Shown: positions 49,439 through 62,107 of the stretch, piece after piece
Layout: every line of letters begins with the position of its first letter
Position numbering within the stretch: position 1 is the stretch's first letter
Source: Convivina praedatoris
GTDB lineage: Bacteria > Bacillota > Bacilli > Lactobacillales > Lactobacillaceae
Length of the DNA: 64,000 nt
NCBI RefSeq assembly: GCF_933208495.1
Contig: NZ_CAKOET010000002.1
Location: forward strand, 62,001 to 126,000
Reading direction: 5' to 3'
Made by a program: the position numbers and the translations under genes
Notes under the pieces: model-generated
What the model saw: the letters and a program-made list of their open reading frames with translations, nothing else
Database searches by the model: none
Told to the model about the DNA's origin: nothing

Positions 49439-49469
49439 TTGACTTGGAGTTCACTCCAAGGTGTAGTCT
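49439..49469 (+). promoter_or_regulatory. MerR-type promoter A with operator CTTGGAGT-TC-ACTCCAAG
   Basis: TTGACT (49439-49444) and TAGTCT (49464-49469) are 19 bases apart, the long spacer that MerR-family activators correct by DNA distortion. The palindrome with perfect 8-base arms lies at 49443-49460, between the hexamers. As I recall, AdhR of Bacillus subtilis recognises CTTAAAG-N4-CTTTAAG, the same skeleton. Confidence 0.8.
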
Positions 49470-49632
49470 AACGTTATTCTAACTAAGGGAGAGCAGACCA
49501 GTTGAAGAAATGTATTCTTATAAATTAATGCCAATATTATTAATTATAATCAGTACTTTTTTGATAAATAGACAGCACTACGAAATCAGTACAATAACTA
49601 AGAAAGAACAGAAAATAAAATCGGAGGATTCA

Positions 49633-50163
49633 ATGAAAAATAAAAAAAATTTAATTGTTTATTATTCTCGTACCGGGAATACTGCAGCAGTAGCTAATAT
49701 TATTCATCAACAGGTTGGGGGCGATATTGTTCAACTGGAGACTACAGTAGTTCGTCCAAGTGATTATGAAACTGAGGTAGCTCAAAATCAGAGTGAACAA
49801 AATCAAGCTATTTTACCAGCGTTAAAAACTAAAATTGATAACTTTTCAACATACGATGTAATGTTTATCGGGACACCAACCTGGAATATGGCTTTACCCC
49901 AGGCAGTGGTTACATTTTTAAATGACTACAATCTTTCTGGCAAAACAGTAATTCCTTTTAATACAAATGGAGGATATGGGTCTGGGAACACCTTTACGCA
50001 AATTCAATCAAAAGCCAAAGGTGCCAAAGTATTAAAAGGATTTTCTGTTCAAGGTGGAAAAGAAAAAGATGGTGTTCTGTTGAGCATTAAAGATCAGAGA
50101 GAAGTAGTGGTCAGTAAGGAGATTGATAATTGGTTAGTCGATATTGGTCAAATTAAAAAGTGA
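49633..50163 (+). CDS. Flavodoxin
   Basis: A 176-residue FMN-binding electron carrier or quinone-reductase-like flavodoxin (LIVYYSRTGNTAAVAN phosphate loop near residues 7-22, GTPTWNMALPQAV, FNTNGGYGSGNTF). First gene behind MerR-type promoter A, so it is probably induced by electrophile stress. I chose the ATG at 49633 because CGGAGGA lies 7 bases upstream. The same frame continues upstream to an ATG at 49510 and would add a hydrophobic N-terminal segment (LMPILLIIISTFLI) that could anchor the protein. Confidence 0.85.
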   Translation: MKNKKNLIVYYSRTGNTAAVANIIHQQVGGDIVQLETTVVRPSDYETEVAQNQSEQNQAILPALKTKIDNFSTYDVMFIGTPTWNMALPQAVVTFLNDYNLSGKTVIPFNTNGGYGSGNTFTQIQSKAKGAKVLKGFSVQGGKEKDGVLLSIKDQREVVVSKEIDNWLVDIGQIKK

Positions 50164-50255
50164 TACTTTTTGAAAATTTAATATCGCTAAAGGTTTTAAC
50201 ATCCTAATTAATGAGTTGTTGGCTTTAGTATACCGATAGTATAAAGAAAGCGGGT

Positions 50256-50894
50256 ATGAACATGAAAATTGTTATTTTAGGGGCTGCAGGGCAAATTGCA
50301 CGCCAATTAACAGAACGTCTATTACATGAAAGTAATGATACCATTACCTTGTTTGCTAGAAATGCTCAAAAACGCCTAAATGAGTATCAAAATAATGGAA
50401 GAGTAACAATAGTTGATGGAGATTTTTCCGATGAACCGTTACTCCATCGAATCATACAAGGACAAGATATAGTTTTTGTAGATTCTGATCGCAATATGTC
50501 TCCAATCATAGCGGCAATGAAAGCCACTGGAGTTCAAAGACTAATTATTGCGGGGGCACTGGGTATTTATAATGAAGTTAGTGGTGCTTTTGGTGAGTGG
50601 AATCGGTCGATGATGGGTCCTGTGCCACTTTGGCGACAAAAAATGATTCATGATGTTGAGAATTACGGATTGGACTATACCTATATGAGAATGACCTGGC
50701 TGTATAACGAGAAAGATAATACTAGCTATGCAACAACACAAAAAGGAGAGCCTTTCATTGGAGCTCAGATAACTCGTCAGGCAGTGGTCCAATATATTCT
50801 AGATCTACTAGCTAATCCACAGCGTGATTTAAAAGCCAGTGTCGGTATCTATGAACCAGGCAGTGAAAAAATGGCTAAACCTAGTTTTTATTAA
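50256..50894 (+). CDS. NmrA/SDR-like NAD(P)-binding protein
   Basis: A 212-residue atypical short-chain dehydrogenase with the N-terminal dinucleotide motif VILGAAGQIARQL and an NmrA-like layout (IFVDSDRNM, LIIAGALGIYNE, YTYMRMTWLYN). The catalytic Tyr-x-x-x-Lys is not clear, so it may act as a redox sensor or a quinone or flavin reductase like its relatives. It lies 92 bases after the flavodoxin gene. A box TAGTATACCGATAGTATAAAG in part resembles a separate promoter upstream. Confidence 0.82.
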   Translation: MNMKIVILGAAGQIARQLTERLLHESNDTITLFARNAQKRLNEYQNNGRVTIVDGDFSDEPLLHRIIQGQDIVFVDSDRNMSPIIAAMKATGVQRLIIAGALGIYNEVSGAFGEWNRSMMGPVPLWRQKMIHDVENYGLDYTYMRMTWLYNEKDNTSYATTQKGEPFIGAQITRQAVVQYILDLLANPQRDLKASVGIYEPGSEKMAKPSFY

Positions 50895-50910
50895 AGTGTG
50901 AAAGGAAAAA

Positions 50911-52239
50911 ATGGAAAAAAAGAAATTTGGTATTGTGCTACCGATTGTACTATTTACTTACTTTATTATTTTGTTGGATAATTCAATTGTGTTTACTGGG
51001 ACGGTACAGATTGCTCAAGGATTGAACTTGAGTGTGCGGGAACTATCCTGGGTATCAAACGCCTATGTCCTAACGTTTGGTGGGCTGTTATTAGCCATGG
51101 CTCGTGCCGGTGATTTGTTTGTTCGTAAAAAAATATTTATTAGTGGGCTTGTAATTTTCGCCCTCGGCTCTCTAGCAGTTGGAATGGCTAATTCAGCCTT
51201 AACCATTATTTTTTCCCGAGCTTTTCAGGGGATTGGGTCAGCCATCTTAGCGCCTTCAACCTTGGCCATTATTATGGATAATTATCAAGGGCAACAGCGA
51301 AATCAAGCCATTGCTTATTATGGGGCTACAGCCGGTATTGGTGGTATCGCAGGCTTGATTTTGGGTGGCTGGATTATTCAAACTTTTTCGTGGCGAGTTG
51401 GTTTTTTAATTAACGTGCCGATTGCTATAGTAGTTGCTATTATAGCCTTAGCCTTTATTCCCAGGGTTAAAGGTCAAAATGGACAACTAGACTATGCAGG
51501 TATGCTCTTGTCTGTATTAGCAATGAGTTCACTGGTGTACGGTATCGTGGGAACGGTATGGCAGCAATGGTTCTTAGGTTTTTCGATTTTAGCGTTCATT
51601 GTCCTATACTTTGTTGAAAAGAATAATAAAAATCCCCTAGTACCCTTATCCCTATTTGATGATCGTCAACGGTGGGGAGCTTATCTGGCTCGTTTTATTT
51701 TCATGGGGGCGATCTTTTCATATTGGTTCCTAACGCCCCAAGCCATGCAAAATGTTTTGGGATTTACATCGATGATGGCTGGATTGGCTTTTATCCCTAT
51801 GTCAATTCCACAGTTTATACTCAGTATGCAGGTATCTAAATTAACGCAACGTTATGGGAATACAATGGTTATGATGTGGGGGTTAATTTTTTGTTTGTTA
51901 GGCTTATTGGTGCCATCTTTGGTACCATTGTCCTATGGTTATTGGCTAACGATGGCTTTGCCAATGGTTTTACTAGGTATTGGACAAGGATTAGCGCTCA
52001 GTCCCTTAACGGTTGCTGGGGTTGCCAATACCAAAGCCTATATTAGTGGGGCAGCCAGCGGAATGGTCAACACGACACATCAAATTGGTTCGTCCGTCGG
52101 ATTGTCAATTATCATCGCCTTAACGGCTAATATGAAATTACCCGCCATGCAATACCAACATGCATTATGGATCATTAGTATTTTTATGTTGATGGCTATT
52201 ATAATAGCTTGGTTAGTGATTCGACCGATAGAAAAATAA
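50911..52239 (+). CDS. DHA2-family MFS efflux transporter
   Basis: A 442-residue permease with twelve to fourteen helices (LDNSIVFTGTVQIAQ in helix 1, the loop RAGDLFVRKKI, GLILGGWIIQ as the antiporter motif). It lies 16 bases after the NmrA-like gene and 14 before a MerR regulator, so it belongs to cluster A. It would export the toxic compound or its conjugate, but the substrate is unknown. It is shorter than the pump at 47846 and is not a recent duplicate. Confidence 0.88.
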   Translation: MEKKKFGIVLPIVLFTYFIILLDNSIVFTGTVQIAQGLNLSVRELSWVSNAYVLTFGGLLLAMARAGDLFVRKKIFISGLVIFALGSLAVGMANSALTIIFSRAFQGIGSAILAPSTLAIIMDNYQGQQRNQAIAYYGATAGIGGIAGLILGGWIIQTFSWRVGFLINVPIAIVVAIIALAFIPRVKGQNGQLDYAGMLLSVLAMSSLVYGIVGTVWQQWFLGFSILAFIVLYFVEKNNKNPLVPLSLFDDRQRWGAYLARFIFMGAIFSYWFLTPQAMQNVLGFTSMMAGLAFIPMSIPQFILSMQVSKLTQRYGNTMVMMWGLIFCLLGLLVPSLVPLSYGYWLTMALPMVLLGIGQGLALSPLTVAGVANTKAYISGAASGMVNTTHQIGSSVGLSIIIALTANMKLPAMQYQHALWIISIFMLMAIIIAWLVIRPIEK

Positions 52240-52253
52240 CTTGGAGTATTGAT

Positions 52254-52631
52254 ATGAATATTAAAAAAGCAGCTGACTTAACAGATCTATCAGCTGATAC
52301 TATTCGTTATTATGAACGAGTTGGTATTATTGGGCCTGTCCCACGTTTAGAGAATGGTATTCGAGATTTTGGTGAGCGAAGTATTAATCAATTGAATTTT
52401 GCTCGAATTATGCGTAATGCAGGAATGAGCATTGAACTGTTAAAGCAGTATATTGATTTGATTTATGCTGATGACGATCAGACTATTCCAGCACGTAAAG
52501 AAATGTTGCAAGAGGCTGCTGATGAGATGGATAGTAAAATTGAGAAATTAACAACTGCACGAGATTATTTGAATCATAAAATTCAGAATTACTATGGGCA
52601 CATGCGAGATACTGAGCGAAATCTATTTTAG
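52254..52631 (+). CDS. MerR-family regulator A, AdhR/NmlR-like
   Basis: A 125-residue activator with an N-terminal MerR winged helix (KKAADLTDLSADTIRYYERVG, about 4-24), a second helix pair and a C-terminal dimer coiled coil. There is no metal-binding C-terminal tail. It contains no cysteine at all, so it cannot use the redox-cysteine mechanism proposed for AdhR and NmlR. The ATG at 52254 has GGAG upstream. It probably acts at promoter A (49439), at the start of the gene cluster that contains it. Confidence 0.86.
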   Translation: MNIKKAADLTDLSADTIRYYERVGIIGPVPRLENGIRDFGERSINQLNFARIMRNAGMSIELLKQYIDLIYADDDQTIPARKEMLQEAADEMDSKIEKLTTARDYLNHKIQNYYGHMRDTERNLF

Positions 52632-52654
52632 AAGAATTCAAGGAGAATAACGTA

Positions 52655-53518
52655 ATGGAATATAAGACTTTATCCAATCAAGTGAAGATACCAGTATTAG
52701 GTTTTGGTGTTTTTCAAATGCAAGAGGCAGGGGAAGCCAAACAGGCTGTGTTTGAGGCGATTAAAGCAGGCTATCGTTTAATTGACACTGCAGCTAGTTA
52801 TGGTAACGAGCGTGAAGTTGGTCAAGGAATCGCTGCTGCGATTTCAGATGGACTTGTTAAACGAGAAGATTTGTTTGTGACGAGTAAAATGTGGGTGGCC
52901 GATGTAGCACCCGATAAAGCTGCAGCGGCAATTGATGCGTCTTTGGCACGCTTACAGTTAGATTATTTAGATTTGTATCTAATCCATCAACCATATAATG
53001 ATGTATTTAGTGCTTGGCGAGCTATGGAGGAGGCTTATCGTCTTGGTAAGTTACGTTCTATTGGTGTATCGAACTTTGATATTGCCCAGTTAACTAATTT
53101 GGCCGAATTTTCAGAAATTAAGCCAATGCTTAATCAGATTGAGGTCAATCCCTTTCAGCAAAATCAAAAAGATGCAGAATATTTTGAACAATATGGTGTG
53201 CAAGTTGAAGCATGGGCACCGTTTGCTGAAGGGAAGAATGGATTATTTGAGAATCCTATTTTGCAAAAAATAGCAGAATCGCATCAGAAGTCAATCGCCC
53301 AAGTAATACTACGTTGGTTAGTACAAAGAGATATCGTAGTATTAGCTAAATCAAACAAATCCGAACGAATGCAACAGAATTTAGCAGTGCTAGATTTTGA
53401 CTTAAGTATGGATGAGATGCAAAAAATTCAGCAACTAAATACTGGGAAAAGCATGTTTTTTGATCATGCAGATCCTAAAATGATTCAATGGATGGCAGGT
53501 CGTGAAATTCAATATTAA
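52655..53518 (+). CDS. Aldo/keto reductase
   Basis: A 287-residue NADPH-dependent (beta/alpha)8 reductase of aldehydes and ketones. Catalytic residues are present: Asp and Tyr in LIDTAASYGNE (about 44-54), Lys in VTSKMWV (about 76) and His in LYLIHQPYN (about 108). The C-terminal cofactor region LAKSNKSERMQQN fits. It is part of cluster A, 23 bases after MerR A. The AdhR regulon in Bacillus likewise controls aldehyde-reducing enzymes, which supports a role in aldehyde or methylglyoxal detoxification. Confidence 0.92.
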   Translation: MEYKTLSNQVKIPVLGFGVFQMQEAGEAKQAVFEAIKAGYRLIDTAASYGNEREVGQGIAAAISDGLVKREDLFVTSKMWVADVAPDKAAAAIDASLARLQLDYLDLYLIHQPYNDVFSAWRAMEEAYRLGKLRSIGVSNFDIAQLTNLAEFSEIKPMLNQIEVNPFQQNQKDAEYFEQYGVQVEAWAPFAEGKNGLFENPILQKIAESHQKSIAQVILRWLVQRDIVVLAKSNKSERMQQNLAVLDFDLSMDEMQKIQQLNTGKSMFFDHADPKMIQWMAGREIQY

Positions 53519-53565
53519 ATAATTATTAGTGGCAGTGTATAGTAAGCTTAAAAGGGAACTTTAGT

Positions 53566-54140
53566 ATGAATAAAGAGCGTTTGGCAACTTTTATTGATGC
53601 CATGTTAGCGATTATTATGACAATATTGGTGCTAGAGTTGGAGCACCCTAAAACAATTTCTTTGGCTGGCTTTTGGGCCATGCGTGAGCACTATTTCGCT
53701 TATACCTTGGCTTTTTTTGGCTGGGTGCAATGTGGGTTAAATTGCATAATAATTGGTATCGCATCCAAAGAATCAACCCTAAGATTATATGGGCTTCCTT
53801 ATTGATGCTATTTACTTCCTCACTTTTCCCATATGCTACTAGCATCGTTTCTGAAAATTTTGATAATCGCGCTGCTCAAATTTTCTATGGATTAGTAGTA
53901 TTGTCGATCACGGCTAGTAATCAGTTACAATATTATTTACTACAACGGGCTAATCAGTCACAAGAGAATTCTGTTCGGCATATTGCTGCCCGTCGTGGTT
54001 GGGCAAAATATGATGTTGCGCTCAAATTGTCAGGGATGCTTTTGGCAATGACTGTTTATCCACTAGCAATGATTTTTTCAGTGTTGATAACTTTAATGAC
54101 TTTCGTAATTCCTAATCAATTAAAAATAAAGTGTGTTTAA
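53566..54140 (+). pseudogene. TMEM175-like (DUF1211) channel with a frameshift in a T7 run
   Basis: The signature of bacterial TMEM175-type potassium channels is at the start (RLATFIDAMLAIIMTILVLE). After AYTLAFF the frame breaks at seven T (53712-53718); with eight T it continues as FFWLGAMWVKLHNNWYRI, and the rest of the gene, with the last helices, is intact to 54140. An intact relative lies at 56116. The gene may be inactive or phase-variable, or the run may be a sequencing error. AAGGGAAC precedes the ATG. Confidence 0.82.
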
Positions 54141-54198
54141 ATATTTTCTGTTTTGCAGAGAAGGATTAATATCAATCTCTGTACATTGTTTAGCTGTT

Positions 54199-54228
54199 AG
54201 ATTAATCCCCTGGGGTTAGTCTTTTTTA
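54199..54228 (+). terminator. Terminator of cluster A
   Basis: AGATTAA-T-CCCC pairs with GGGGTTAGTCT with one bulged T, followed by six T. Confidence 0.7.
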
Positions 54229-54234
54229 TTTTAC

Positions 54235-54265
54235 TTGACTTAAAGTGAACTTTAAGATTTATCAT
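54235..54265 (+). promoter_or_regulatory. MerR-type promoter B with operator CTTAAAGT-GA-ACTTTAAG
   Basis: TTGACT (54235-54240) and TATCAT (54260-54265) are separated by 19 bases. The palindrome at 54239-54256 has perfect 8-base arms. The core CTTAAAG-N4-CTTTAAG is identical to the AdhR site known to me from B. subtilis. Confidence 0.82.
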
Positions 54266-54297
54266 AATGAATACTATAACTACTTAAGGAGGAGTTT

Positions 54298-54927
54298 ATG
54301 AAAATCGTCGTTAAATATACACTATTAGCACTTGTATTTTTATTAATTGGTGTCGCATGTGGTGGATGGGCATTTAACCACGGAGCAACATCAAAAAGGA
54401 ACCAGTCTAGTCAAGGAGGAGGGACCGTGCAAACGAGATTGCAAATGACCTTTACTAAACCACAAAATGTGAATACTTCCGGTAAGAAAGTGTTCTTAAA
54501 CGCCAGCCAAAATACTGATGGTAACACAGCTAAAATGGCAAAAGAATTATTTGGTAATGAAAAATATACGCAAATTAATTTGTCAGAGTATAATATTCCT
54601 CAAGTTGGTCAAGGAGATGGCGATTATCAAAAAGTATTTGACCAGTTAAAGGGGGCTAAAGTGATTGTGATTGGTACGCCGGTGTACTGGTCAAACATGT
54701 CTGGTTACTTAAAAACCTTTATGGATCATATGAACATTAACAGTGAACTCAAAGGTGCCGATTTATACACGATTGTTCAAGGAGCAGATTCGGATCAAAG
54801 TGCCGCCATTCAATCAACTTATGGTAGCTTAAACCGAATTGCTCGCCGCTTTGAGTTGAATTTTGTTGGTGTTGGATCCAATAATTCTGATATGAAAGTG
54901 TTGCATAATCAATTGGTTGGAGAATAA
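54298..54927 (+). CDS. Membrane-anchored flavodoxin-fold protein
   Basis: A 209-residue protein with an N-terminal hydrophobic segment (about residues 6-26, YTLLALVFLLIGVACGG) and then a flavodoxin/FMN-reductase-like domain (VFLNASQNTDGNTAKMA, VIVIGTPVYWSNMSGY). The cysteine after LIGVA resembles a lipobox imperfectly, so it is either a lipoprotein or a single-pass anchor. A glutamine- and serine-rich linker follows (about 33-43). If exported, it would be an extracytoplasmic flavoprotein. First gene of cluster B, with GGAGG before the ATG. Confidence 0.8.
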   Translation: MKIVVKYTLLALVFLLIGVACGGWAFNHGATSKRNQSSQGGGTVQTRLQMTFTKPQNVNTSGKKVFLNASQNTDGNTAKMAKELFGNEKYTQINLSEYNIPQVGQGDGDYQKVFDQLKGAKVIVIGTPVYWSNMSGYLKTFMDHMNINSELKGADLYTIVQGADSDQSAAIQSTYGSLNRIARRFELNFVGVGSNNSDMKVLHNQLVGE

Positions 54928-54946
54928 ATTATTTTAAGGATTTTCG

Positions 54947-55351
54947 ATGAAAATTGAAAAAGTTAGTAAAAAATGCGGAGTTCCAGCAGCCACCCTACGC
55001 TATTGGGAGTCGATTGGGCTTTTACCACCGATTAGCCGTAATAGCAGTGGTCATCGTGATTATGAACAGCGGGATTTGAATTGGGTATTTTATGTAAAGG
55101 CGCTGCGTGGCGCTGGCATGGACATTGACACCTTAAAAAAATTTATTGATTCGTATCGAAATTCAGATTCTATTGCAGAACGAAAACAGATTTTAATTGA
55201 TCAAAAGGTGGAACTTTTGTCCCAGCTAACAAAACTTCAAAAAACTTTACAGTACTTAGATTTTAAAATTGATAATTTTGATTCACATATGATTGGCTAC
55301 GAAGAAGAAAAATTAGCTTATCATCAGAGCGAAAAGGGGGAAAATATATGA
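54947..55351 (+). CDS. MerR-family regulator B, AdhR/NmlR-like
   Basis: A 134-residue MerR-type regulator (KVSKKCGVPAATLRYWESIG, about 5-24) with a C-terminal coiled coil. Its only cysteine lies in the DNA-binding helix (Cys10), not in the linker position used by AdhR or NmlR. It is part of cluster B and is expected to act at promoter B, 690 bases upstream. Its end overlaps the start of the SDR gene by 4 bases. It is diverged from MerR A and C. Confidence 0.87.
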   Translation: MKIEKVSKKCGVPAATLRYWESIGLLPPISRNSSGHRDYEQRDLNWVFYVKALRGAGMDIDTLKKFIDSYRNSDSIAERKQILIDQKVELLSQLTKLQKTLQYLDFKIDNFDSHMIGYEEEKLAYHQSEKGENI

Positions 55352-56091
55352 CAACAGCAAAAGTAATCGTAATTACCGGGGCATCATCCGGTATTGGGAA
55401 AGCTATTGCCAAAGCGCGCGCAGCTAAAGGAGATAAAATTGTCCTTGGTGCCCGTCGTGAAGACCGTTTACAGCAAATTCAAAAAGCAATTGAACAGGCC
55501 AACGGCACTGCTACCTATGCGGTAACTGATGTCACTGAACTTGAGCAGGTTAAAGCTCTAGCCCAGCAAGCGCTAGATAGCTACGGTCGGATTGATGTTT
55601 GGATTAACAATGCCGGACTAATGCCACATTCCCTATTGATTGAGGCTAAGGTTGATGACTGGAATCGCATGATTGATGTCAATTTGCGGGGAACCTTGTA
55701 CGGCATTGCTGCAGCTCAAGGTATTTTTCATGAGCAAAATGAAGGCCACTTTATTAACCTGGGATCAGTTGCTAGTTTGTACTCACATGCTGGTGGAGCA
55801 GTTTATTCTGCTACTAAGTGGGCTGTAAAAGCTATTTCGGAAAGTTTACGTGAGGAAGAAGCACAAGCGGGTAAAAATGTGCGTGTTACTACCCTTTATC
55901 CAGGTGCCGTAAAATCTGAATTAGTATCACATATGACGGATCCTGCCCGTCGAGAAGCAACCGATAAGTTTTATGACCAGTTTGCCATTCCAGCCGAGCG
56001 GATTGCCAAAGTTGTTAGTGATGTATTAGATATGCCGGCTGATGCAACCTTAAACGAAATAGTTATTCGTCCTAGTAAGCAAGTTCAGTAA
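55348..56091 (+). CDS. Short-chain dehydrogenase/reductase
   Basis: A 247-residue classical SDR with the cofactor motif TGASSGIGKAIA, NNAG, and the catalytic Ser-Tyr-Lys (LGSVASLYSHAGG and VYSATKWAVKA). The Arg residues after the first motif (LGARREDR) favour NADPH. It resembles the YdfG/YusZ-like reductases of hydroxy acids and aldehydes; the substrate is unknown. It is translationally coupled to MerR B (ATGA-type overlap), with AAGGGGG upstream. Confidence 0.9.
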   Translation: MTTAKVIVITGASSGIGKAIAKARAAKGDKIVLGARREDRLQQIQKAIEQANGTATYAVTDVTELEQVKALAQQALDSYGRIDVWINNAGLMPHSLLIEAKVDDWNRMIDVNLRGTLYGIAAAQGIFHEQNEGHFINLGSVASLYSHAGGAVYSATKWAVKAISESLREEEAQAGKNVRVTTLYPGAVKSELVSHMTDPARREATDKFYDQFAIPAERIAKVVSDVLDMPADATLNEIVIRPSKQVQ

Positions 56092-56105
56092 ACTCAGGTA
56101 AAAAT

Positions 56106-56133
56106 AAAAACGACCTTATTGGGTCGCTTTTTT
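56106..56133 (+). terminator. Terminator between SDR and TMEM175-like genes
   Basis: CGACC/GGTCG with A/T-rich flanks. It overlaps the 3' end of the convergent gene. Confidence 0.7.
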
Positions 56134-56673
56134 ATTTTGGTGAATGCTAATAACGTATAGAAATAAACCGGCTAAAAATACAAAAATTAAAATTGCCATG
56201 GGGTAAACGGTGATGGCAATGACAAAACCAATCAATTTAATCACTAAATCCAAAGATAGGTTCTTTAGATAAATTTGAAATTCTTTGCCTTGATGTAAAG
56301 TGGCATACTGCCAGAGATTACTAAAACTCACCAGGAAGATAATAACCCCATAAAAGCCAGCAGCAAACCGGTTATTAGGCTCTAATGATAAAACTTCTGT
56401 TGCCCAAGGAATCAACGAAGCGAAAAATAACATGACCACGGTGGCCCATAAAGTGCTGTCGGTAACGTCCTCTTTGTTTTGAAAGCGGCCATGGCTATTA
56501 ATCCACATCATGCCTAACCAGAAAAAGGAAATGGCATAGGCAAAGAAGTCAGTTCTAAGCTCAAACAGGGTGGAAAAATCTAAATGCTGAGGTTTCGGGA
56601 ATTCCAAAACCAGAAAAGTCATAATAATTGGTAGCATTGCGTCTAAAAAAGTGATGACACGATCTTTTTTCAT
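56116..56673 (-). CDS. TMEM175-like (DUF1211) channel
   Basis: A 185-residue membrane protein with about six helices and the TMEM175 signature at the start (RVITFLDAMLPIIMTFLVLEF). Bacterial homologues form potassium-selective leak channels. It is an intact paralogue of the frameshifted gene at 53566 and lies on the opposite strand between clusters B and C. Its presence in the middle of electrophile-response genes recalls the use of potassium flux in protection from electrophiles in other bacteria (KefC type), but that link is inference. GGAGAT precedes the ATG. Confidence 0.82.
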   Translation of the reverse strand: MKKDRVITFLDAMLPIIMTFLVLEFPKPQHLDFSTLFELRTDFFAYAISFFWLGMMWINSHGRFQNKEDVTDSTLWATVVMLFFASLIPWATEVLSLEPNNRFAAGFYGVIIFLVSFSNLWQYATLHQGKEFQIYLKNLSLDLVIKLIGFVIAITVYPMAILIFVFLAGLFLYVISIHQNKKATQ

Positions 56674-56747
56674 GAATTAATATCTCCTAATCCATTTAAT
56701 TATATAACCAAGCGCATCATGATTTGAATAACTTTTTTGCTGTTGGT

Positions 56748-56778
56748 TTGACTTATAGTTAACTCTAAGTTGTATAGT
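56748..56778 (+). promoter_or_regulatory. MerR-type promoter C with operator CTTATAGT-TA-ACTCTAAG
   Basis: TTGACT (56748-56753) and TATAGT (56773-56778) are 19 bases apart. The 8-base arms differ at one position. The skeleton is the same as in promoters A and B, but the inner bases differ. Confidence 0.8.
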
Positions 56779-56807
56779 GACTGTAAAGAATTTGGGAGGT
56801 TATCAAT

Positions 56808-57143
56808 ATGGTAAAACAAACTGCAGGACGTGATAATTTAGGAGATTTTGCTCCTAAATTTGCTGAATTAAACGATGATGTTTTATTTGGTGAAGTTTGG
56901 TCACGAGATAAAGAACTTTCTTTACGAGATCGTAGCTTAATTACTATTGCAGCTTTAATTTCAGGTGGTAATTTTGCACAATTGGGTCATCATTTACAGA
57001 CCGGTAAACAAAACGGGCTTAAACAGTCTGAAGTGGTGGAGGTTATTACTCAGTTAGCTTTTTATGTTGGTTGGCCCAAAGCGTGGTCAGCATTTAATAT
57101 TGCTAAAGAAATTTATTCAGATAAGGAGCCCAACAATGATTAA
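56808..57143 (+). CDS. Carboxymuconolactone decarboxylase-family protein
   Basis: A 111-residue helical protein of the CMD/AhpD-like fold (FGEVWSRDKELSLRDRSLITIAALISGG in part, LGHHLQTGKQNGLKQSE). There is no CxxC, so it is not an AhpD-type peroxidase, and it is closer to the decarboxylase-like or YurZ-type proteins. Its reaction is unknown. First gene behind promoter C, with GGGAGG upstream, overlapping the cupin gene by 8 bases. Confidence 0.85.
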   Translation: MVKQTAGRDNLGDFAPKFAELNDDVLFGEVWSRDKELSLRDRSLITIAALISGGNFAQLGHHLQTGKQNGLKQSEVVEVITQLAFYVGWPKAWSAFNIAKEIYSDKEPNND

Positions 57144-57561
57144 AAATGAGTTCATAAAAGCAGATAGCCTGTTTGGCGTGGGGGAAAGTAATGATAATTT
57201 TGCTAAATTTTTCACCGGAAAAAGTTATTTAAACATGTTAGTTAATGATCCAGCGGTGGATGTCGGTGTTGGCAATGTGACGTTTGAACCAGGATGCCGG
57301 AACAATTGGCATATTCATCGTGATGGGTATCAAATTTTACTAGTAACTGGCGGAGAGGGGTTATATCAGGAAGATGGGCAAACTGCTCGTCATCTTTTTC
57401 CTGGGGATGTAGTTGTGACCCATGATGGCGTTAAACATTGGCATGGGGCAACGCCTAATAGTTGGTTTGAACATATTGCGATTACTGCTGGAACACCGGA
57501 GTGGTTAGAACCAGTGGCTGATGCAGATTATCAAGTGGCAGCTGAAACGATATCGGAGTAG
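57136..57561 (+). CDS. Cupin-domain protein
   Basis: A 141-residue single-domain cupin with the metal-binding histidines visible (NNWHIHRDGYQILLV and a second motif DGVKHWHGATP). Pairing of a CMD-family protein with such a cupin is widespread and the two also occur fused, which suggests sequential or joint action on a reactive carbonyl or quinone compound. The ATG at 57136 has AAGGAG upstream and overlaps the end of the CMD gene. The substrate is unknown. Confidence 0.87.
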   Translation: MIKNEFIKADSLFGVGESNDNFAKFFTGKSYLNMLVNDPAVDVGVGNVTFEPGCRNNWHIHRDGYQILLVTGGEGLYQEDGQTARHLFPGDVVVTHDGVKHWHGATPNSWFEHIAITAGTPEWLEPVADADYQVAAETISE

Positions 57562-57567
57562 TAACGC

Positions 57568-57984
57568 ATGGGGACTCGACAATATCATGTTGGAAAATTT
57601 GCCAAATTATTGGGAGTGACAACTTATACGGTTCGTTATTATGAGCAGGAAGGGTTGTTGCAATTTAATAAGGTTAACAATCAGCGCATTTATGACGATC
57701 AAGATGTTTTGTGGTTCCAATTTTTACAACACTTAAAAGGAGCAGGTTTTAGCTTAGCTGAGATGAAACAATACGTGAAATTGCGGGTTCAGGGAGATTC
57801 AACGATTGCCCAACGGGAAACATTATTGCGAGAAAAGCAAGCTGAACTAAAGAAAGAAATTAAGCAAAAACAGACTCATTTAGCGGTTGTGAAAGACAAA
57901 ATTAATTTTTATCAACTTAAGCAAACCAAGAATTACAACGGAGATTTTGCAACCTTTCGTCAGCATGAAAAAAAATCGGAATAA
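57568..57984 (+). CDS. MerR-family regulator C, AdhR/NmlR-like
   Basis: A 138-residue MerR-type regulator (HVGKFAKLLGVTTYTVRYYEQ, about 7-27), with a Lys-rich C-terminal coiled coil (LLREKQAELKKEIKQKQ). It has no cysteine. Last gene of cluster C, 6 bases after the cupin gene, and expected to act at promoter C. The three MerR proteins differ in their recognition helices (SADTIRYY, PAATLRYW, TTYTVRYY), as do their operators. Confidence 0.87.
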   Translation: MGTRQYHVGKFAKLLGVTTYTVRYYEQEGLLQFNKVNNQRIYDDQDVLWFQFLQHLKGAGFSLAEMKQYVKLRVQGDSTIAQRETLLREKQAELKKEIKQKQTHLAVVKDKINFYQLKQTKNYNGDFATFRQHEKKSE

Positions 57985-61909: not shown

Positions 61910-62107
61910 ATGATCAATCGAATTCAAGAATACCGAAAACAACAAGGGTTGACTCAGGCTGATTTAGCTCAGCAGGTTGGGATTGCTCGCCAGACGGTCA
62001 ATTTAATTGAAAATGGCAAGTATAATCCCAGTTTGGATTTATGTATTCGGATTTGTCAGTGCTTGGATACCGATTTGAACACCTTATTTTGGGAGGTAGA
62101 GAGATGA
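61910..62107 (+). CDS. Small XRE-family regulator
   Basis: A 65-residue Cro/C1-type helix-turn-helix protein (LTQADLAQQVGIARQTVNLI, about residues 14-33). It overlaps the next gene (a DUF3278 membrane protein) by 4 bases, so the two are co-translated. The ATG at 61910 has ACGGAAG upstream; a GTG at 61895 is possible. Short XRE regulators are typically paired with small membrane proteins of this type. Confidence 0.87.
   Translation: MINRIQEYRKQQGLTQADLAQQVGIARQTVNLIENGKYNPSLDLCIRICQCLDTDLNTLFWEVER

Follow-up and report, generated by a model that had tools for sequence, protein, structure and literature searches.

Introduction

The paralogous metal-sensing MerR regulators CueR and GolS of Salmonella are told apart by a few helix residues and operator bases, and the residues that specify them are other than those described below. 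Here, we analyze three adjacent gene clusters of Convivina praedatoris (Lactobacillaceae), each with its own promoter/operator (O1, O2 or O3) and MerR regulator (R1, R2 or R3), in a window of 64,000 nucleotides (positions 62,001 to 126,000 of contig NZ_CAKOET010000002.1, assembly GCF_933208495.1; coordinates below are those of the window). In heavy-metal MerRs, the main determinant of recognition is known to be the second residue of the recognition helix (position 14 in that numbering), the most correlated position across the five subfamilies studied; the pairs G-D and A-A are enriched, and position 21 is also among the correlated positions (Korostelev et al., 2016; PMC5045206). Among regulators of the NmlR/AdhR type, HiNmlR of Haemophilus influenzae (PDB 5D8C) was crystallized on cttagagttcactctaag (PMC6480146). 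HiNmlR possesses Cys54 and responds to formaldehyde, this cysteine is described as absolutely conserved in the NmlR clade, and a gene of the carboxymuconolactone decarboxylase (CMD) family belongs to the AdhR regulon of B. subtilis (PMC4776306). A survey of regulons in lactic acid bacteria, from 2013, lists NmlR for Streptococcaceae, not for Lactobacillaceae (PMC3616900). Among the open-access papers searched, we found no published account of a recognition code for the NmlR/AdhR-like branch, and only the heavy-metal study was directly relevant to MerR operator specificity among paralogues or to orthogonality.

The sites, their promoter architecture, the covariation of regulators and operators, the switches within orthologue groups and the synteny described below are established by computation. 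The best explanation of these results, which we hold with considerable confidence, is that the three clusters contain three autoregulated MerR switches whose choice of promoter would depend mainly on the second residue of the recognition helix.

Operators and Promoters

The 22-bp operator pattern TTGACTTNNAGTNNACTNNAAG, with two or fewer mismatches allowed, has only three matches in the whole 1.52 Mb genome, all inside 7.4 kb (O1 to O3, Table 1), and the reversed pattern, used as a control, has one match at this threshold and none without mismatch. In the window, the 18-bp core is found without mismatch solely at O1, O2 and O3 and with up to two mismatches at eight places, against 3.2 expected. 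Uniqueness throughout the genome, judged against the reversed pattern, rejects chance occurrence of the sites. All three operators are of the NmlR/AdhR type CTTnnAGTnnACTnnAAG, with the skeleton found in the DNA of the HiNmlR crystal, and all three lie in a promoter spacer of 19 bases, within the 19 to 20 bp known for MerR-type operators. An earlier note on this DNA had proposed the three promoters, with their TTGACT, 19-base spacer and palindrome, at exactly these positions, and had claimed that the inner dinucleotides of the three operators differ; they do, the half-sites reading GG/GG, AA/AA and AT/AG. O3 is thus asymmetric, with the right half-site CTTAGAGT.

The exact operator is present in 153 of 397 genomes of the same family, in which the reversed control has one match (in G227) among the matches listed. 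Operators were collected with a pattern in which the inner dinucleotides could be any bases, from a scan of all bacteria (at least 118 stretches, L004-L121), from 100 family regions hand-chosen for variety among the matches listed and from 40 added regions comprising second operators of multi-operator genomes plus others, with the short loci L001-L003, L122-L174 and L275-L294 excluded ahead of counting. The collection, including the operators of this genome, contains 277 exact operators, 274 of them distinct and three duplicates by context (two paired with a regulator and one unpaired). A TANNNT motif stands at a spacer of 19 in 225 of the 277 and at none of the other spacers between 15 and 23 in more than 18; this concentration marks the operator pattern as a genuine MerR-type promoter.

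R1, R2 and R3 each possess an N-terminal winged helix-turn-helix (HTH) domain (PF13411, above cut-off), and the earlier note had correctly read one MerR per cluster with the recognition helices SADTIRYY, PAATLRYW and TTYTVRYY, respectively. Because the gene of each follows its own operator and runs in the same direction, each is probably autoregulated.

Covariation of the Recognition Helix and the Operator

Each operator was paired with a nearby small MerR encoded downstream (within 4.5 kb), divergently (within 300 bp) or just upstream (within 300 bp), which gave 164 pairs for the 277 operators, and the regulators were aligned; the orthologue-search regions L295-L314, L316-L324 and L355 were also excluded from the class counts on these pairs. 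The second residue of the recognition helix (Asp15 of R1, Ala15 of R2 and Tyr20 of R3) follows the inner dinucleotide, whose bases we call N4 and N5: Asp is found with GG, AG or GA, Ser, Ala and Pro with AA or CA, and Tyr, His and Phe with AG or CG. Among the 160 pairs that could be classed, A is at N5 in both halves for 65 of the 71 regulators with Ser, Ala, Pro or Thr, for three of the 47 with Tyr, His or Phe (all three His) and for none of the 42 with Asp or Glu, and G is at N4 in one or both halves for 6/71, 2/47 and 33/42, respectively. Removal of the two duplicate pairs lowers the Tyr/His/Phe total to 45 and leaves all else unchanged. A tight subset of 128 pairs follows the same rule at N5 (54/59 in the small-residue class, 2/41 in the aromatic/His class and 0/26 in the acidic class), as do the 69 pairs of the all-bacteria subset alone (19/22, 3/19 and 0/25).

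When mutual information is computed between 70 columns of the DNA-binding domain and three operator positions (135 pairs, 128 regulators), helix residue 2 ranks first, with Z of 13.8 for N5 and 10.3 for N4 among 103 representatives clustered at 80% identity, and of 8.8 and 6.6 among 49 representatives clustered at 60%. Column 20 of the alignment (counted from 0; after YYE) is the second column correlated with N4 and N5, and column 59 (counted from 0) correlates with the central operator base, with Z of 4.9 and 4.2. In the alignment, the two leading columns stand at places 14 and 21, the positions also named in the heavy-metal study, and the Lys of CueR that is given there at position 14 is aligned with Asp15 of R1 (PMC5045206). 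By analogy with that study, the key residue may face the DNA. Beyond what that study covered, the code of the NmlR/AdhR-like branch adds the Tyr/His/Phe and Pro classes and switches within orthologue groups. These comparisons of sequences give good support to a specificity code that carries the known MerR recognition rule over to another branch, and the window offers a tidy three-class example of it.

Two described or recognizable members of the branch fit these classes and resemble the proteins of the window in both residue and site. The best matches of R3 by sequence in the PDB include HiNmlR, which also has Tyr at the specificity residue; its operator, cttagagttcactctaag, shares the skeleton and is AG/AG, whereas O3 differs in having AT in one half. 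An AdhR-like MerR of B. spizizenii (L047), which is probably the AdhR orthologue judging from its Cys52 (counted from the second Met) and a nearby alcohol dehydrogenase gene, shares with R2 and O2 the Ala at the specificity residue, the AA/AA operator and the skeleton.

The earlier note had also expected recognition helix and operator to covary in related genomes. This covariation is present across the family and within the orthologue group of each of the three regulators, and homologous clusters in which it is lacking were looked for and are the exception, not the rule.

Switches within Orthologue Groups

Operator searches around orthologues were relaxed to two or three mismatches. The R2 group has 13 members, eight of them with an operator: one or both halves have G at N4 in all five with an Asp helix, and neither half does in the three with an Ala or Ser helix (R2 itself with AA/AA, its nearest orthologue, in G026, with AA/TA and one other with AA/AA). 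As the group is mostly Asp (9/13 members) with G-type operators, R2 and the G026 orthologue look like a D-to-A switch. The R3 group has 59 members and 45 operators: with a Pro helix, A stands at N5 of either half in 26 of 26 operators, and with Tyr, His or Phe it does so in none of 18 (no half in 16 and one half in two), counts that are not independent events, part of the group being close relatives; one further member, which is truncated, has AG/AG. The R1 group has 29 members and 18 operators, and its Asp and Glu members have A at N5 in no half in 10 of 14 cases and in one half in the other four, a Ser member and an Ala member each have AA/AA, and two others are mixed. In two R1-like regulators (L300 and L301, in G062 and G094) the specificity residue is Gly, and their operators, with two mismatches, are AT/AT, possibly a fourth class.

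A held-out scoring of R1, R2 and R3 against O1, O2 and O3, based on 106 pairs less than 45% identical to R1 to R3, gave the true pairing +7.1 bits and the five others -6.2 to -16.8 bits. This test is independent in its numbers, not in its grouping, because the residue classes were drawn up on a table that included the pairs of the window.

Proposed Mechanism and Points against It

We propose that a dimer of each MerR binds its own promoter at the palindrome, within a spacer that at 19 bases is over-long, and represses it, and that on a signal the MerR would distort the DNA and so activate the promoter. In each half-site, residue 2 of the recognition helix may read the inner dinucleotide, probably by direct base contact, and it may chiefly set the choice of promoter, such that Asp15 of R1 would select GG, Ala15 of R2 AA and Tyr20 of R3 A(G/T). 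Cross-talk among the three regulators would then be low, and insulation of the three switches is what such a code predicts.

Several observations weigh against so simple a rule. The code is degenerate: operators of Asp and Glu regulators are often mixed, with A at N5 in one half in 19 of 42 cases, and in the R2 group three of the five Asp operators (GA/GA, GA/TA and GA/CA, mismatches allowed) keep A at N5 in both halves, so that this group switches at N4 only. The AT of the left half of O3 is rare in its class (2/58 half-sites of Tyr regulators, O3 itself being one of the two), and the least excluded cross-pair of the held-out scoring is R3 on O2 (-1.9 bits), because Tyr regulators pair with AA in nine of 58 half-sites. 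Exceptions include three His regulators on AA/AA or AA/CA, two Ser regulators on GG/GA, a Tyr regulator (L198) with AC/AC, three regulators with one unusual half and the sole Thr regulator, which pairs with AG/AG, contrary to its class. The three classes, as noted above, were themselves defined with the window's own pairs in the table. No NmlR-type MerR could be paired by the distance rules with 113 of the 277 operators, 46 of which have at least 4.5 kb on either side. Finally, in the ten genomes that have at least two distinct regulators paired with operators, six of these genomes being from one genus, four of 11 regulator pairs are of different class, against 6.6 in shuffles (the orthologue-search regions being excluded here too), and three of these four are from the C. 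praedatoris genome itself. As 486 of 500 shuffles reach four or more such pairs, the trend, if anything, is toward a shared class, and selection for insulation as a general rule is rejected, there being no enrichment of class differences within genomes.

The 46 unpaired operators with long flanks could reflect regulation in trans, a different type of regulator or a missed gene.

Possible Regulons in Relatives

In G340 (L249, 4978-15927), relatives of genes from all three clusters of the window are found in one island, with identities of 62% for the MFS transporter, 67% for the flavodoxin, 70% for the NmrA-like protein, 77% for the aldo/keto reductase (AKR), 79% for the short-chain dehydrogenase (SDR), 75% for the CMD-family protein and 50% for the cupin. 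The island has four exact operators (AG/GG, AG/GA, GA/AG and TG/AG) and one R1 orthologue (75-77%), which is the sole MerR of this kind detected in the stretch. Because all are in an island with one regulator, the genes of the three clusters look like a single regulon in G340, and in the window the enzymes look as if they had been shared out to three regulators that differ in code class. The R2 orthologue of G026 (L309) likewise stands amid operators of the AA/CA type (two mismatches each, one with three), and its neighbors are relatives of the NmrA/AKR, SDR/flavodoxin, MFS and flavodoxin genes. Judging from this layout, the operators of G340 and G026 may all answer to the neighboring regulator.

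Tentatively, we also put forward a bolder version of the proposal, that one side chain is the main dial of a three-letter alphabet (acidic, small and aromatic/His) throughout the branch, and that here all three letters may have cut a relative's single oxidoreductase regulon into three insulated, cysteine-independent switches.

With a recognition code of this kind, a single residue would tell part of the operator of an uncharacterized NmlR/AdhR-like regulator, and regulators could thus be matched to promoters where several coexist. R2 orthologues with Asp or Ala and R3 relatives with Pro or Tyr provide natural before-and-after pairs in which regulator and site change together, and the three-class set on one promoter skeleton might be used as orthogonal promoters if the insulation is true.

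Alternative Explanations

The inner dinucleotide might instead drift neutrally among interchangeable operators, and the three MerRs would then form one shared, cross-regulating regulon. The island of G340, where one R1-like regulator stands amid four operators with somewhat different dinucleotides, would fit this explanation, as would the several genomes with two regulators and operators of the same class and the AA half-sites of Tyr regulators. We nevertheless consider it unlikely: neutral drift would not yield so high a Z at one helix residue or matched switches within orthologue groups, and symmetric half-sites are in excess, being found in 131 of the 277 operators against 54 expected if the halves were independent.

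The earlier note had suggested that the clusters give three responses to related electrophiles, which would have R1 to R3 sense related carbonyls by cysteine modification as AdhR and NmlR do. Oxidoreductases are indeed encoded next to the regulators, and one of the neighboring genes is of the CMD family, as in the B. subtilis AdhR regulon (PMC4776306). The sensing-cysteine column (Cys54 of NmlR, Cys52 of AdhR), however, has Ile in R1, Ala in R2 and His in R3; R1 and R3 are free of cysteine altogether, and the single cysteine of R2, Cys10, is in the HTH. The likeness of R3 to HiNmlR and of R2 to L047 therefore does not extend to this position, at which both HiNmlR and L047 have the cysteine. 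All three proteins also stay below the 175-bit cut-off of the NCBIfam NmlR equivalog model NF041849 (133.2 bits for R1, 100.2 for R2 and 60.5 for R3). With the cysteine replaced and the cut-off unreached, R1 to R3 are NmlR-like, not NmlR, and since the sensing cysteine is missing from all three, electrophile sensing is unsupported and, in our judgment, improbable. Across 128 paired regulators, the same column has Cys in 48 and His in 37. Among the R3-like regulators of lactic acid bacteria, most of the R3-group members listed have His at this column, possibly a sign of a different sensing chemistry.

Shared ancestry alone, by which subfamilies would have inherited helix and operator with no causal link between them, gains some credit from the many pairs that come from related genomes and from the dense sampling of the regulators' own family. 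Same-class pairs, however, agree better at N5 than different-class pairs in every bin of regulator identity (0.82 against 0.33 below 35%, 0.70 against 0.36 at 35-45%, 0.63 against 0.35 at 45-55%, 0.67 against 0.15 at 55-70% and 0.85 against 0.25 above 70%, the last with six different-class pairs only). Tests of correlated evolution on a tree, on which the class changes 10-11 times, gave likelihood ratios of 55.9, 25.3 and 31.7 (p = 2e-11, 4e-5 and 2e-6); they used an earlier set of 126 tips, 26, 20 and 28 of which are ambiguous in the operator trait, and rest on one tree, built without the two top columns, and on a rough optimizer. The covariation of residue and bases thus goes beyond phylogeny, as expected of a MerR recognition code, and the identity bins, the tree tests and the switches within orthologue groups, together with the all-bacteria pairs, which follow the rule by themselves, lead us to reject plain shared ancestry, to which we give very little weight.

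Equally hard to credit is the history favored by the earlier note, in which duplicated regulators had their specificities parted by two base changes per half-site, if it is read as recent tandem duplication, since, for all the adjacency and similar layout of the clusters and the mostly Asp, G-type composition of the R2 group, R1 to R3 are only 28-34% identical to one another and are thus old paralogues, each with closer relatives in other genera (75-77% for R1, 57-58% for R2 and 48-50% for R3), and adjacent clusters in other genomes (L318, L229) have other class combinations.

Gene Clusters and Surroundings

The genes of the three clusters, all on the forward strand, are listed in Table 1 with the operators that precede them. 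No open-access paper was found that joins at least four of the terms MerR, CMD, cupin, flavodoxin and Lactobacillus.

Table 1. Promoters, genes and a terminator-like hairpin of the three clusters (positions in the window).
Feature	Position	Strand	Remarks
Promoter/operator O1	49439..49469	+	Operator 49439-49460; -35 TTGACT at 49439; palindrome 49443-49460, inner GG/GG; -10 TAGTCT at 49464; spacer 19
Flavodoxin (Flavodoxin_4), cluster 1	49510..50163	+	Likely start 49633
NAD(P)-binding NmrA-like protein, cluster 1	50256..50894	+	-
MFS transporter, cluster 1	50911..52239	+	Nearest to DHA2-type efflux models, below their cut-offs
R1, MerR regulator, cluster 1	52254..52631	+	Helix SADTIRYY; specificity residue Asp15; no cysteine
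AKR, cluster 1	52655..53518	+	-
Terminator-like hairpin directly upstream of O2	54199..54222	+	Consensus scan
Promoter/operator O2	54235..54265	+	Operator 54235-54256; palindrome 54239-54256, inner AA/AA; -10 TATCAT at 54260; spacer 19
Flavodoxin-like FMN-reductase-family protein, cluster 2	54298..54927	+	N-terminal hydrophobic segment read from sequence
R2, MerR regulator, cluster 2	54947..55351	+	Helix PAATLRYW; specificity residue Ala15; single cysteine Cys10 in HTH
SDR, cluster 2	55348..56091	+	-
Promoter/operator O3	56748..56778	+	Operator 56748-56769; palindrome 56752-56769, inner AT/AG; -10 TATAGT at 56773; spacer 19
CMD-family protein, cluster 3	56808..57143	+	-
Cupin, cluster 3	57139..57561	+	-
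R3, MerR regulator, cluster 3	57568..57984	+	Helix TTYTVRYY; specificity residue Tyr20; no cysteine

The consensus scan for terminators also predicted hairpins 3' of clusters 2 and 3, and its total of 10 sites is not clearly over the 6.8 expected by chance (standard deviation 2.9). The one other genome of the genus that was searched (G001) has no exact operator and no match to R2 at 1e-18, its match to R3 is only 38% identical and its match to R1 is weak, so that the locus varies within the genus.

A TMEM175-like gene at 53566-54140 on the forward strand is broken over two frames: the first, N-terminal one has a match to PF06736 before it ends at a stop, and the second continues with no Pfam match. 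A TMEM175-family gene at 56116-56673 on the reverse strand appears to be intact.

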